The notes below the pieces were generated by a model, which saw only the letters and a list, made by a program, of their open reading frames with translations, searched no databases and was not told the origin of the DNA. From Sinomonas humi (lineage in GTDB: Bacteria > Actinomycetota > Actinomycetes > Actinomycetales > Micrococcaceae): 64,000 nt of DNA. Position numbers and translations under genes: made by a program. This document shows, in pieces, positions 40,092 through 55,959 of this stretch (the first letter of the stretch is position 1; each line of letters starts with the position of its first letter). The stretch spans positions 1 to 64,000 of the forward strand of contig NZ_JTDL01000123.1 in NCBI RefSeq assembly GCF_000802235.1, given 5' to 3'.

Positions 40092-40478
40092 GTGAACCAG
40101 GTGGGTGAGCAGCGGTGGGCCTTGCGGATCGGTTGGATCGGTCTGGTAGGCGTGAGCCTCGGCATCATGGGTTTCGGCGCAGTGATCGCAATCGCGCCGA
40201 TGGGCGCCGACGAGTTGCTCTACCGCGCTGACGGACTCGCCTCGATCGGACTGGGCCTACTCGGCGGCCTCCTCGCCCTGATCCCCTACCGCCGGCGCGA
40301 GCGCTGGGCATGGATCGCGCTCTGGTTCTACCCCGTTTTCTGGACCATCCATCTGGTCTCCGGACTGCCACCGGGCAAGGACCACATCCACCAGGTCGTC
40401 TTTATTGCCCTCTCCCTGCTCGGGCTTCTCCTGCCGGTGCGGGCATTCTTCCCACGACGCCAAACAGTTGTCCGCTGA
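40092..40478 (+). CDS. Small membrane protein, 128 aa
   Basis: Four hydrophobic segments (IGWIGLVGVSLGIMGFGAVIAIA; GLASIGLGLLGGLLALIPY; WAWIALWFYPVFWTIHLVSGL; VVFIALSLLGLLLPVRAFF). No family assigned. GTG start. Confidence 0.65.
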   Translation: MNQVGEQRWALRIGWIGLVGVSLGIMGFGAVIAIAPMGADELLYRADGLASIGLGLLGGLLALIPYRRRERWAWIALWFYPVFWTIHLVSGLPPGKDHIHQVVFIALSLLGLLLPVRAFFPRRQTVVR

Positions 40479-48886: not shown

Positions 48887-48906
48887 GAGACAGACGGGTC
48901 TGTCTC
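48887..48906. promoter_or_regulatory. TetR operator in the sigma-factor leader
   Basis: Perfect dyad GAGACAGAC-GG-GTCTGTCTC, the longest of the set (9-bp arms). It lies 32 bp before the sigma-factor start, just downstream of its predicted promoter, so a bound repressor would block elongation. Confidence 0.85.
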
Positions 48907-48914
48907 CTCAACGA

Positions 48915-48944
48915 TTTATACAAGTAGACAGACAGGTCTGTCCA
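48915..48944 (-). promoter_or_regulatory. Promoter of the sigma factor with built-in TetR operator
   Basis: On the minus strand TGGACA, 18 bases, then TATAAA. The spacer contains the dyad GACAGAC-NN-GTCTGTC (48927-48942). The same layout precedes two small genes at 54.4 and 54.8 kb. Confidence 0.8.
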
Positions 48945-48985: not shown

Positions 48986-49015
48986 GCAGACAGTACTGTC
49001 TACACGGGTTAGCAT
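48986..49015 (+). promoter_or_regulatory. Promoter/operator of tetR
   Basis: A perfect AGACAG-TA-CTGTCT dyad (48988-49001) followed by a -10-like TAGCAT (49010-49015), six bases before the GTG of tetR. The mRNA may therefore be leaderless. The dyad is a variant of the regulon site, fitting autorepression. Confidence 0.7.
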
Positions 49016-49021
49016 CGCTAT

Positions 49022-49756
49022 GTGGACGCCCGAGGTGAGACTCGCGCGACCGTGAGTCTCAGGCCCGGTGCGCGCGACAAGATTCTTGATACTTCGTACG
49101 AGCTCTTCGCTCGTCGCGGGATTCGCGACGTGGGCGTGGATGAGATCATCTCCCGCTCAGGAGTGGCGAAAGCTACCTTCTACCGACATTTCCCTTCGAA
49201 GGACGCTCTCGTCCTCGCCTATCTGGACCGCTGGTTCGTGGCGCGCAGTGCCGCAATCGAGGCGGCCACAGAGGGAATTGAGAGCACCGAAGAAGCGGTG
49301 CTCGCCGTGTTCGGCGTCCTGCACGACTGGTTCGAGCACGGAACGGCTGAGGCGAGTGCGTTCCTGCACGTCATGATCGAGATGGGGCCCGACCATCCGC
49401 TCGGCCAGGCAAGCATGGACTACCTCACGCGGACGCGCAAGCAGCTCGCGGACCTCGCGGAGGCCGCGGACCTGCGTGATCCAGAGGGGTTCGCCTGGTC
49501 CTGCCACATCCTGATCAAGGGTGCGATGGTGGCTGATTCCGAAGGGGACACAGAGGCCGCGGCTAGGGCCCTCACGATGGCGCGCCTCCTCGTCGAGGAA
49601 CATCACGAGAAGAAGCCCTCCTCAGCCCCCCGCCGATTCACTGCCTGGACGGACCCCGAGGGGCTCAATCAGAACGTTGCGACGTCAGCGCCCCAGCGCG
49701 CGGCTACTTCGCGCGCCTCTACTCCGCAGCGAGCTCGCCGAGCCGGGTCACGGTAG
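49022..49756 (+). CDS. TetR-family regulator of the GACAGAC regulon
   Basis: 244 residues: helix-turn-helix ARDKILDTSYELFARRGIRDVGVDEIISRSGVAKATFYRHFPSKDALVLAYLDRW and a helical ligand domain. The C-terminal 40 residues are basic and disordered. Divergent from the sigma factor, with three matching dyads in the 166-bp gap. GTG start six bases after the -10, no ribosome site, so probably leaderless. The ligand is unknown. Its end overlaps the convergent second TetR gene by 38 bp. Confidence 0.88.
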   Translation: MDARGETRATVSLRPGARDKILDTSYELFARRGIRDVGVDEIISRSGVAKATFYRHFPSKDALVLAYLDRWFVARSAAIEAATEGIESTEEAVLAVFGVLHDWFEHGTAEASAFLHVMIEMGPDHPLGQASMDYLTRTRKQLADLAEAADLRDPEGFAWSCHILIKGAMVADSEGDTEAAARALTMARLLVEEHHEKKPSSAPRRFTAWTDPEGLNQNVATSAPQRAATSRASTPQRARRAGSR

Positions 49757-53784: not shown

Positions 53785-54033
53785 GTGCCAGAGTTTCATT
53801 TGACCGTTCTCCGCACAACGGGTTCGGCTCGAGAAAAGACACCCGCCCCGGAGATCACCTTCATGGCGAGGGATCTCTCCTCCGCGAAGACGCTCGCGGA
53901 GTGCATCATCAAGCAAGACCGGTTCAAGGGGCCCGCCGCAGACGAGGCGACGCTCGTGGGGCCGGCCTCAGCGCCCGCTTCCAGATGGACGAGCAGTTCC
54001 GGCTGGGATGAGGCGCTTGAGCCAGTGACTTGA
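53785..54033 (+). CDS. Hypothetical protein, 82 aa
   Basis: Not recognised, but AAAGGAGGT eight bases before the GTG is the strongest ribosome site in the window. FHLTVLRTTGSAREKTPAPEITFMARDLSSAKTLAECIIKQDRF looks like a small alpha/beta domain. Ends at a bidirectional terminator. Confidence 0.7.
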   Translation: MPEFHLTVLRTTGSAREKTPAPEITFMARDLSSAKTLAECIIKQDRFKGPAADEATLVGPASAPASRWTSSSGWDEALEPVT

Positions 54034-54127: not shown

Positions 54128-54307
54128 TCAGCCTGGAAGCGGGACGTCGGGGGCGTCGTCGTCGCCCCCGTAGGCTTCTTTCTCCAGTTCCTCGGCCCGT
54201 TCCGGATCCTTCTCGGGAGCGATGCTGCGCTTCTCCTGCTGGGGCTCGGGCGCTTGGTCTTCCGCGCGTTCGAGATCGTCATCGGGCTGATCGATAGGTG
54301 CCGTCAC
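54128..54307 (-). CDS. Small acidic protein, 59 aa
   Basis: GTG with GGGGAAGGAGAGG upstream opens 59 codons: VTAPIDQPDDDLERAEDQA, then RAEELEKEAYGGDDDAPDV. It is highly charged and probably disordered or helical. Not recognised; the strong ribosome site and shared terminator support it. Confidence 0.6.
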   Translation of the reverse strand: MTAPIDQPDDDLERAEDQAPEPQQEKRSIAPEKDPERAEELEKEAYGGDDDAPDVPLPG

Positions 54308-54377: not shown

Positions 54378-54407
54378 TGGACAGAACGGTCTGTCTACTC
54401 CTAGCGT
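54378..54407 (+). promoter_or_regulatory. TetR-regulon promoter before the mini-sigma gene
   Basis: TGGACA, 18 bases, TAGCGT, with the dyad GACAGAA-CG-GTCTGTC (54380-54395, one mismatch) in the spacer. Same form as the sigma-factor promoter at 48915-48944. A possible start of transcription at about 54414. Confidence 0.8.
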
Positions 54408-54450
54408 GACGAATATGCGGGGCTTCCAGCCCTGCCGAGAGGAGTCAGCC

Positions 54451-54762
54451 ATGGAGGAGAGCGCATTCTGTGCCGGAGCCCTGGAAGCTGGCCCGCCAGA
54501 GGAAGCTTGTCCCGACACCGTCGTTGAGGCGGCAGCGGCAGGGCAGTTCGCCATCGAGTGTTACCGCGATCGGGCTTGGGCCAGTTGCCCACCCCGGAGC
54601 CTTGTGGCCATCCGGCTCCAGGCGCAGGATCTCCGGGGCGTGCTCCTGCAGATTTTGGGCCGCGAGCCGACGATCGAAGAGGTCGCAGACGCCCTGCGCG
54701 TGGAGGGAGAGGCTGCTCAAGTCGAGGCGGTTGGCCTGCCGGCTCCGGCTTCCATTGGGTAG
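54451..54762 (+). CDS. Sigma-factor fragment (regions 2.4-3), mini-sigma protein
   Basis: 103 residues. Residues about 31-92 align without a gap to residues 84-145 of the sigma factor at 48115-48855. Shared are RD-x-x-W-A-x-x-P-P-R-S (39-50), R-L at 55-56, and L-G-R-E-P-(S/T) (69-74). It has no core region 2.1-2.3 and no region 4, so it cannot be an ordinary sigma factor; it may be a decoy, an anti-sigma-like partner or a decayed sigma gene. It carries the same TetR promoter as the sigma gene, which argues for a working protein. ATG with GAGAGGAG; an upstream ATG at 54415 would be leaderless. Confidence 0.75.
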   Translation: MEESAFCAGALEAGPPEEACPDTVVEAAAAGQFAIECYRDRAWASCPPRSLVAIRLQAQDLRGVLLQILGREPTIEEVADALRVEGEAAQVEAVGLPAPASIG

Positions 54763-54772
54763 CGCGTGGAAT

Positions 54773-54802
54773 TGGACAGACTGGTCTGTCTACTTCTAGC
54801 AT
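54773..54802 (+). promoter_or_regulatory. TetR-regulon promoter before the 80-aa gene
   Basis: TGGACA, 18 bases, TAGCAT, with the perfect dyad GACAGAC-TG-GTCTGTC (54775-54790) in the spacer. Confidence 0.85.
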
Positions 54803-54809
54803 TCTTGGC

Positions 54810-55052
54810 GTGTTGAATATGAGTGGCGCTGCAATGGCGCAGAAGCCGCAGGGTGCATCGGCCGATTCCGGGCTGGCCGCCGAGTCGGAGCTTCACTACC
54901 GATCGCTGTGGATCCTGCAGCACCTTCTTGAGGGCTCCGAGTTGGCGTCAGAGACCAAGACCCGTCTCCGGGAACTCGTCGAGGAGCATGCCGCCGATCC
55001 CGAGCAGGCCCTTCTCGAGCACCTTCGTGAGGTCCGCGCCCCCCTGACATGA
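54810..55052 (+). CDS. Hypothetical protein of the TetR regulon, 80 aa
   Basis: Not recognised. Mostly helical: ESELHYRSLWILQHLLEGSELASETKTRLRELVEEHAADPEQALLEHLREV. The predicted mRNA starts at or just before the GTG at 54810, eight bases after the -10, so leaderless translation is likely; ATGs at 54819 and 54834 lack ribosome sites. Co-regulation with the sigma factor and the mini-sigma suggests a partner role, e.g. an anti-sigma or adaptor (inference). Confidence 0.6.
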   Translation: MLNMSGAAMAQKPQGASADSGLAAESELHYRSLWILQHLLEGSELASETKTRLRELVEEHAADPEQALLEHLREVRAPLT

Positions 55053-55077: not shown

Positions 55078-55959
55078 ATGAAGATCTTCGTAACCGGCGC
55101 ATCCGGATGGATTGGTTCAGCGCTCATTCCGGAACTTGTCGGGGCCGGCCATGAGGTTCTGGGGCTGGCTCGATCGGATAGGTCGGCGGCCGTCGTGGCC
55201 GCACGCGGCGCCGAGGTGCTTCGCGGTGAGCTGACGGATCAAGGCGCCTTGACGGCGGGAGCGAAGGCATCGGACGGCGTCATCCATCTCGCATTCATCC
55301 ACGACTTCACGGATTTCGCCGCAGCAGTGAGGGCCGACGCCGACGCGATCGCCATCCTCGGAGCTGCGCTCGAGGGTTCGGGAAAGCCGCTCGTCATCGC
55401 GTCCGGGACCCCCGTTGTGCCCGGCCGCCTCGCGACCGAACGTGACAGGAACGCCTCGACCTCCCCTGCAGCCGCCCGGGAGGAGAATGCCCAGGCCCTC
55501 CTGGGCATGGCTGACCGCGAAGTCCGCCCCGTCGTCGTGCGCCTCCCCAGGAGTGTGCACGGGGAAGGCGACGCGCACGGGTTCGTGGCCCGCCTCATCG
55601 CGACTGCGCGCGAACGGAGGGTTTCGGGCTACGTCGGCGACGGCTCCAACCGCTGGCCCGCTGTTCACGTGCTGGACGCGGCCCGCCTGTTCCGCCTAGG
55701 CGTGGAAGAGGCGCCGCCCGCGTCGGTCCTTCACGCCGTGGGGGATGAAGGGGTCGCGATCGGGGACATCGCGGCGGAGATCGGGCGCCGTCTGGAGCTT
55801 CCGACGGCGCCCGTCCCGGCCGAGCAGTTCGGTTTCCTCGGCGGGATCCTTGCCCAGGACCAACCGGCTTCCGCCGAGCTCACGCGGCAACTGCTCCCGT
55901 GGGAGCCAGAGCACCCCGGGCTACTCGAGGACCTTGCGAAGGACCACTATTTCGCCTGA
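55078..55959 (+). CDS. NAD-dependent epimerase/dehydratase-family protein (SDR)
   Basis: 293 residues with the extended SDR start MKIFVTGASGWIGSALIPEL (G-x-x-G-x-x-G), ending in the C-terminal lid. The Tyr-x-x-x-Lys pair is not evident at its usual place (SPAAAREENAQ), as in the atypical SDR5 group. So an NAD(P)-binding protein of unclear catalytic power. Likely co-transcribed with the gene before it (25 bp gap). Confidence 0.85.
   Translation: MKIFVTGASGWIGSALIPELVGAGHEVLGLARSDRSAAVVAARGAEVLRGELTDQGALTAGAKASDGVIHLAFIHDFTDFAAAVRADADAIAILGAALEGSGKPLVIASGTPVVPGRLATERDRNASTSPAAAREENAQALLGMADREVRPVVVRLPRSVHGEGDAHGFVARLIATARERRVSGYVGDGSNRWPAVHVLDAARLFRLGVEEAPPASVLHAVGDEGVAIGDIAAEIGRRLELPTAPVPAEQFGFLGGILAQDQPASAELTRQLLPWEPEHPGLLEDLAKDHYFA

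Follow-up and report, generated by a model that had tools for sequence, protein, structure and literature searches.

To our knowledge, sigma-factor mimicry is known mainly from PhyR, and the natural splitting of a sigma factor mainly from SigO–RsoA of Bacillus subtilis. PhyR, of the alphaproteobacterial general stress response, is described as a protein of sigma origin whose DNA-reading residues are degenerate and which titrates an anti-sigma factor (PMC4598750, PMC8103513). PhyR mimics an ECF sigma factor (sigma-2 plus sigma-4) and has a receiver domain fused to it, with phosphorylation as the switch. In SigO–RsoA, according to the sources, the sigma regions reside on separate small proteins (PMC8103513, PMC10028694), with SigO being the sigma-4 part and RsoA the sigma-2 part. 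The other related system is the partner switching of SigF and SigB (SpoIIAB/RsbW, SpoIIAA/RsbV), for which structure 1L0O is described as a fifty-residue stretch of SigF solved on SpoIIAB (PMC10141391).

We analyzed a 64,000-nt stretch (hereafter, the window) of contig NZ_JTDL01000123.1 of Sinomonas humi, a soil bacterium of the Micrococcaceae, that encodes a full-length sigma factor of the SigB/F/G type and, separately, a 103-aa protein resembling a piece of it (hereafter, the fragment; Table 1). By analogy, the fragment can be said to resemble PhyR and the split sigma factors. Like PhyR, it is a sigma-like domain with degenerate promoter-binding residues, anti-sigma titration being only proposed in its case; unlike PhyR, it is a bare sigma-3 piece of a group 3 sigma factor under a TetR-type operator, and a domain search found no receiver domain in it. 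A second sigma-derived protein of 62 aa, encoded outside the window, is a region-2-type piece like RsoA but, unlike in the SigO–RsoA system, a full-length sigma factor is also present in Sinomonas and the searches made, which were not aimed at region 4 in particular, brought up no separate region 4 protein. As for SigF/SigB partner switching, the window sigma factor belongs to that class and the genome contains a pair of STAS-like and RsbW-like genes; in contrast to that system, a sigma fragment would take the part of the STAS protein as antagonist, and control would operate at the level of transcription. Neither a free-standing sigma-3 protein nor this arrangement in actinobacteria was found among the literature matches listed, which covered few subscription papers. 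If our reading is true, a sigma-3 domain that stands on its own, is maintained by selection, has altered DNA-reading residues and apparently belongs to the regulon of the full sigma factor would represent a novel means of freeing or restraining a group 3 sigma factor.

Table 1. Features of the sigma fragment locus and of related loci (positions refer to the window unless a contig or locus is named).
Feature	Position	Strand	Basis
Free-standing sigma regions 2.4–3 protein, 103 aa	54451..54762	+	homology, orthologues, purifying selection
AGGAG ribosome-binding site of the 103-aa ORF	54440..54444	+	sequence; conserved in three species
Putative promoter TGGACA-18 bp-TAGCGT, overlapping the fragment operator	54378..54407	+	read by eye; three-species alignment
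TetR-type operator ACAGAACGGTCTGT, upstream of the fragment, within the sigma-70-like promoter	54381..54394	.	sequence, pattern search; conserved in three species
Full-length SigB/F/G-type sigma factor, 246 aa	48115..48855	-	homology, domain profiles
Operator, sigma side of the divergent sigma/TetR region	48890..48903	.	pattern search
Operator, second copy in the divergent sigma/TetR region, 38 bp off	48928..48941	.	pattern search
Variant palindrome AGACAGTACTGTCT 5' of tetR	48988..49001	.	imperfect counterparts at the equivalent position in G009 and G006
TetR-family regulator, 244 aa, presumed operator reader	49022..49756	+	domain profiles
Operator 5' of the 77-aa ORF, not named in the original prediction	54776..54789	.	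pattern search
Small protein, 77 aa, likely same regulon	54819..55052	+	dN/dS 0.06 to G009; own operator at 54776
Sigma region 2.1/2.2 fragment, 62 aa, GTG start	G000:C132:1941-2129 (L153)		
Further loci of the 62-aa fragment	L154:5895-6083; L155:5807-5995		

The ORF of the fragment opens with ATG and closes with TAG, and its AGGAG ends 6 nt 5' of the start codon. BLASTP of the fragment against the window sigma factor yielded a main match to sigma residues 86–133 (41.6 bits, E 3e-10; 48 columns including one gap, 46% identical); two other pieces, of 16.5 and 12.3 bits, were at chance level. When profiles of three fragment orthologues and ten sigma factors were compared by hhalign, fragment residues 37–87 aligned to sigma residues 90–140 in 51 gap-free columns (E 5.8e-12). 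The original prediction, namely that this ORF matches regions 2.4–3 of the window sigma factor without gaps at an offset of 53, was confirmed by these searches, including the profile match that it had anticipated; of its "about 60" aligned residues, the gap-free register stood and the extent was reduced to 51 residues that are firm. Both motifs named in it, RD-x-x-W-A-x-x-PPRS and LGREP(S/T), occur in the fragment and the sigma factor alike. Toward the N-terminus from residue 38, the likeness to the sigma factor is weak and requires a one-residue deletion, placed by MAFFT directly ahead of the RD motif, and the N-terminal 33 residues show only a weak likeness to region 2.3–2.4.

The fragment matched NCBIfam SigBFG with residues 38–88 (E 5e-6) and Pfam Sigma70_r3 (E 6e-4), under the curated cut-off in both cases, as is expected of a protein that is a piece only. 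The window sigma factor contains regions 2, 3, and 4 (Pfam) and scored 212.8 bits against SigBFG (model cut-off 234.35). Its closest sequence relatives among solved structures, 8X6G SigB and 1L0O B. stearothermophilus SigF, are complete sigma factors, unlike the fragment. The claimed lack of regions 2.1–2.3 and 4 agrees with BLASTP and the domain searches: hhalign against full-length sigma factors aligned sigma 90–140 only, without core-binding region 2.1–2.2, and Pfam detected no region 4, the protein stopping after region 3. PHROGs contained no match for the fragment. The protein is acidic overall, with a net charge of −8 to −10 in the three orthologues. It shares the region 3 homology of group 3 sigma factors (SigB/F/G) and, judging by its sequence, is not a group 3 sigma factor by definition.

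Orthologues of the fragment were sought in 15 Sinomonas genomes, comprising the genome of the window (G000) and others such as G006 and G009. Three genomes were positive: G000, G009 (76% identity), and G006 (66%; position 40409 of its contig). The expectation that relatives would carry the gene was therefore correct as to the existence of orthologues, which were limited to two of the 14 other Sinomonas genomes. A near-identical sigma factor co-occurs with the fragment in three of three carriers, but this is weak evidence because the carriers are close to each other. The neighborhood common to the carriers consists of a 100-aa ORF, the sigma factor, TetR, a second TetR, an MFS-type transporter, the 82-aa ORF, the fragment, and a transketolase-like gene (the names transporter, dehydrogenase, and transketolase were assigned by look). 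No match to the alcohol-dehydrogenase-like gene or the 77-aa ORF was found in the G006 stretch, and none to the 293-aa ORF at 55078 in the G009 stretch.

The three orthologues are syntenic and exactly 103 aa each, with no indel and no stop. Nei–Gojobori dN/dS values were 0.23, 0.23, and 0.24 overall, 0.14, 0.14, and 0.17 for residues 34–90 (the sigma-like core), and 0.32–0.39 for the N-terminal 33 residues, which are conserved too; the sigma factor yielded 0.06–0.08 for comparison. The fragments differed by 26, 37, and 38 amino acids versus 42, 54, and 54 expected neutrally, i.e., with the same substitutions placed at random. For each pair, 0 of 5000 shuffles reached the observed number, and random placement produced at least one stop in 48–74% of trials. 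Coding in another frame or strand was rejected, as dN/dS exceeded 1 in both shifted forward frames and in all but one of the three reverse frames, and the remaining reverse frame had dN/dS of 0.30–0.33 but one to two stops per species; we infer that its low ratio results from wobble positions coinciding with those of the real frame. Gene debris, considered unlikely from the outset, was likewise rejected, since in all three species the frame is open and of the same length, its codons are under constraint, and its promoter is conserved: stops, indels, and neutral substitution, the marks of a pseudogene, were not found in the relatives. Judged by this comparison, the fragment goes back to a sigma gene of the SigF-like type, and selection has maintained it.

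In a sample of 395 genomes of the family, with up to 12 candidates scored per genome, a full-length match was present in the same three genomes only, among the matches listed, which speaks against a widespread family. The other listed matches were in frames of at least 195 aa, except G013:C1:2405355 (142) and G005:C13:61332 (172), which we judged to be decayed sigma copies. A search of 98 relatives returned the same three carriers. A plasmid-borne fragment was also rejected: only four of 72,556 plasmid records matched, all with annotated Rhodococcus sigma genes.

The promoter of the fragment contains the near-palindrome of the divergent sigma/TetR promoter. The 4.4 Mb assembly contains seven exact sites for ACAGANNNGTCTGT, of which four are in the window (48890, 48928, 54381, and 54776) and three elsewhere (C12:51347, C132:1837, and C132:1875), with those at 54381 and C132:1875 matching on one strand only; the reversed control pattern had zero exact matches in the assembly. 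This agrees with the claim that the same operator precedes the fragment and the sigma factor. Allowing up to two mismatches, a related pattern gave nine strand matches in the window versus 2.3 expected, a number reached by 0 of 100 shuffles. For a 15-base form of the operator, 82 distinct sites were listed among the 15 Sinomonas genomes, 14 of which had at least one, and its reversed control matched once, in G009. Most of the sites (67 of 82) had a sigma or tetR homologue no more than 600 bp away, a count unaltered by adding 22 TetR places initially left out. Five of the remaining 15 were in front of the fragment or the 77-aa ORF in G000, G006, and G009, and ten were near other genes. The layout of operator and promoter upstream of the fragment is conserved in the three species, as is the ribosome-binding site; the fragment and its orthologues each have the conserved operator within the promoter, as expected of members of the presumed TetR regulon. 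From the position of these predicted operators, the window TetR would be their reader, and the common operator indicates that the fragment is probably co-regulated with the full sigma factor. Several Sinomonas genomes, e.g., G005, G008, and G013, contain multiple copies of divergent TetR/SigF-like gene pairs that have two operators ~36–46 bp apart.

Residues kept and changed were assessed against those positions within 90–140 that are invariant in ten Sinomonas sigma factors. All three fragments retain R92, D93, W96, P100, P101, R102, R108, L118, L122, G123, E125, P126, and E130, and all three have changed V98, R99, Q105, and G136. E106 is changed in two fragments and kept in G006; changes at L107, V111, and, in two fragments, L109 are conservative. 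In the region 2.4 helix, near-invariant K88 is replaced by Glu in all three, and near-invariant R89, beside the one-residue deletion, by Cys in two, being kept in G006. We assigned DNA-contacting residues from E. coli sigma-70, in which R99 and E106 presumably correspond to residues contacting extended −10 DNA. Residues expected to read −10 and extended −10 DNA are mostly changed in the fragment, and much of the region 3 core is kept. On this alignment, the fragment should not act as a sigma factor, because the DNA-reading residues are mostly lost and the parts binding core RNA polymerase are absent.

A single AlphaFold2 model of the fragment (mean pLDDT 79, pTM 0.49) contained helices at residues 21–45, 49–69, and 75–95. 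The underlying alignment had 41 of 48 rows, namely the three fragments and 38 of 45 sigma segments, the seven omitted resembling those kept; duplicates, short matches, and stop-containing segments had already been removed from the 45. Foldseek returned 80 matches for this model, none at E ≤ 0.001, and 48 of the best 50 of the 80 were RNA-polymerase or sigma chains. The top matches had TM scores of 0.31–0.35 by query length and rmsd values mostly >10 Å. Against chain C of 1L0O (SigF on SpoIIAB), represented in the Foldseek library by 57 residues, the model matched over 34 residues at 0.5 Å rmsd (probability 0.72, E 2.8). The SigF part seen on the anti-sigma factor in that structure is, we take it, region 3, which fits this local match. 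The fragment is close to the 1L0O SigF part and little else.

The 62-aa fragment is preceded by a pair of the same sites, with the 38-bp spacing seen at 48890/48928, and its frame is divergent from a TetR paralogue 76% identical to the window TetR. Its core, EADELREVARLALEMAVRRYRE, matches the sigma factor from residue 48 on, i.e., region 2.1–2.2, with 54–64% identity over 24–25 residues in three species, and no Pfam family was found for it. Orthologues of the same 62-aa length are present in G009 and G006, so that the carriers are the same three species that have the 103-aa protein. In all of them, the stop codon shares nucleotides with the start codon of the frame that follows (ATGA or GTGA), an arrangement that looks like the one in translational coupling. 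The dN/dS was 0.37–0.61 for the whole protein and 0.08–0.22 for its 26-codon core; neutral trials reached the observed value in 8.5%, 3.4%, and 0%. A gas-vesicle protein gene is located downstream of the 62-aa fragment.

In G010, the place of the 62-aa piece is occupied by a full-length sigma factor 73% identical to that of the window (contig C4), with the surrounding order unchanged: SDR-like gene, 173-aa ORF, TetR, paired sites, sigma factor, and an ORF 79% identical to the 80-aa query; a gas-vesicle gene is further on, with other genes between. On contig C8 of the same genome, the transketolase-like gene adjoins a homologue of the 77-aa protein (70%) with a related site, GACAGAACGCTCTGTC, 5' of it, and no fragment orthologue was found anywhere in the genome. 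In the simplest history, an intact TetR–sigma pair would have come beside the 77-aa gene in the ancestor of the carriers, the old copy would have been cut to 62 aa, and another copy would have become the 103-aa protein. The full-length sigma factor at the 62-aa place in a sister species suggests how a sigma gene may be pared down to a piece that is then kept.

The mechanism that we consider best is a sigma-derived regulator acting as an anti-sigma decoy, or as another competitor for a sigma-3 partner, to which we assign a probability of roughly 0.38. The titration of an anti-sigma factor envisaged in the original prediction is plausible. Given the common operator, a TetR-repressed promoter of the housekeeping type would drive the fragment together with the full sigma factor. 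The fragment would then occupy the partner that normally grips sigma region 3, with an RsbW/SpoIIAB-type anti-sigma factor as the first candidate, so that once TetR leaves the operators, new sigma factor would be made along with a decoy keeping it free. The genome has an RsbW-like gene adjoining a STAS-like gene (G000:C4; STAS named by look), and the RsbW-like proteins of the two other carriers are 94% and 89% identical to it. No anti-sigma gene linked to the window sigma factor was found, the RsbW-like/STAS pair being unlinked. Five of the 15 Sinomonas genomes have sigma and TetR homologues and operators and, at E 1e-10, nothing that matches the RsbW-like protein; hence the window sigma factor may not be under this protein. 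SigF Asp148 is described as an acidic residue located where SpoIIAB and SpoIIAA clash (PMC7340262). If Asp148 corresponds to the Asp of ISPED, under an assumed numbering offset, the window sigma factor has Lys141 and the fragment Ala88 there, and the preceding acid alone is kept; Asp148 is thus probably unmatched in both. SpoIIAB binding has also been attributed to residues in the N-terminal part of SigF (PMC3174212), which is absent from the fragment. The missing linkage, the five genomes with no RsbW-like match, the probable mismatch at Asp148, and the SpoIIAB contacts outside region 3 all weigh against the decoy, as do the poor Foldseek E values and the restriction of the fragment to three close species.

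Behind the anti-sigma decoy, we rank together an inhibitor of sigma factor or polymerase and a role unrelated to either. A fragment that sits where sigma-3 docks on RNA polymerase, or that pairs with the sigma factor itself, would dampen the sigma factor by negative feedback through co-expression. We consider this unlikely: most region 3 core residues are kept and the fragment is probably made along with the sigma factor, but its acidity in all three orthologues disagrees with such a role and, as sigma–core binding relies on region 2, it should bind core polymerase with low affinity. The proposal that it competes at the −10 element is disfavored by the same absence of core-binding region 2 and by the change of most DNA-reading residues. 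Equally doubtful is a stand-alone small helix-turn-helix protein co-opted for a function unrelated to sigma. Here, the good conservation of the region 3 helix-turn-helix stretch and the constraint on the mostly new N-terminal 33 residues have to be set against the residues expected to face DNA, which are changed rather than kept, and against the probable continued membership of the fragment in the regulon of the sigma factor.

Bringing in the 62-aa protein, we tentatively extend the decoy reading to both pieces: two mini-proteins from duplicated sigma genes, induced by TetR release with the intact sigma factor, might tune it by occupying its partners, and the sigma system would then carry its own dismembered copies as regulators. 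It is far less probable that the two act together as a split sigma factor in the manner of Bacillus SigO/RsoA. They do occur in the same three species, each after the same kind of operator, and match different, non-overlapping sigma regions; however, neither has an intact region 2.3 or region 4, most −10-reading residues are gone, and selection on the 62-aa protein is weaker, as the neutral trials show. Slow decay of a duplicated sigma gene, with the fragment as its remnant, appears just as improbable. Apparently decayed or partial sigma copies exist in the relatives G005, G013, G010, and G004, and G010 has the full-length sigma factor at the place of the 62-aa piece, but a remnant would hardly stay open at the same length in three species under strong codon-level constraint, with its promoter and ribosome-binding site conserved.

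Several small ORFs adjoin these genes. The 77-aa family had matches in eight of the 15 Sinomonas genomes, and some members in other species adjoin an operator-like site or a tetR-like gene. Apart from a weak second match in the genome of the window, the 82-aa ORF (53785–54033) had matches in none of the 15 genomes but the same three, and it is constrained (dN/dS 0.07–0.10). Between it and the fragment is an acidic 59-aa ORF on the minus strand (54128–54307). Small proteins of a family marked by a GRRRQR motif repeatedly follow the sigma gene or the 62-aa gene (L153:2126-2398, L161:1459-1698, and L165:1668-1859); in G005 and G013, this family is also found beside another operator, next to a response-regulator-like gene (by look). 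Apparently decayed sigma copies were located at L045:4309-4494, L046:3248-3822, and L047:2631-4766 in G005, G013, and G010, and the one in G010 is split by a transposase-like gene (by look).
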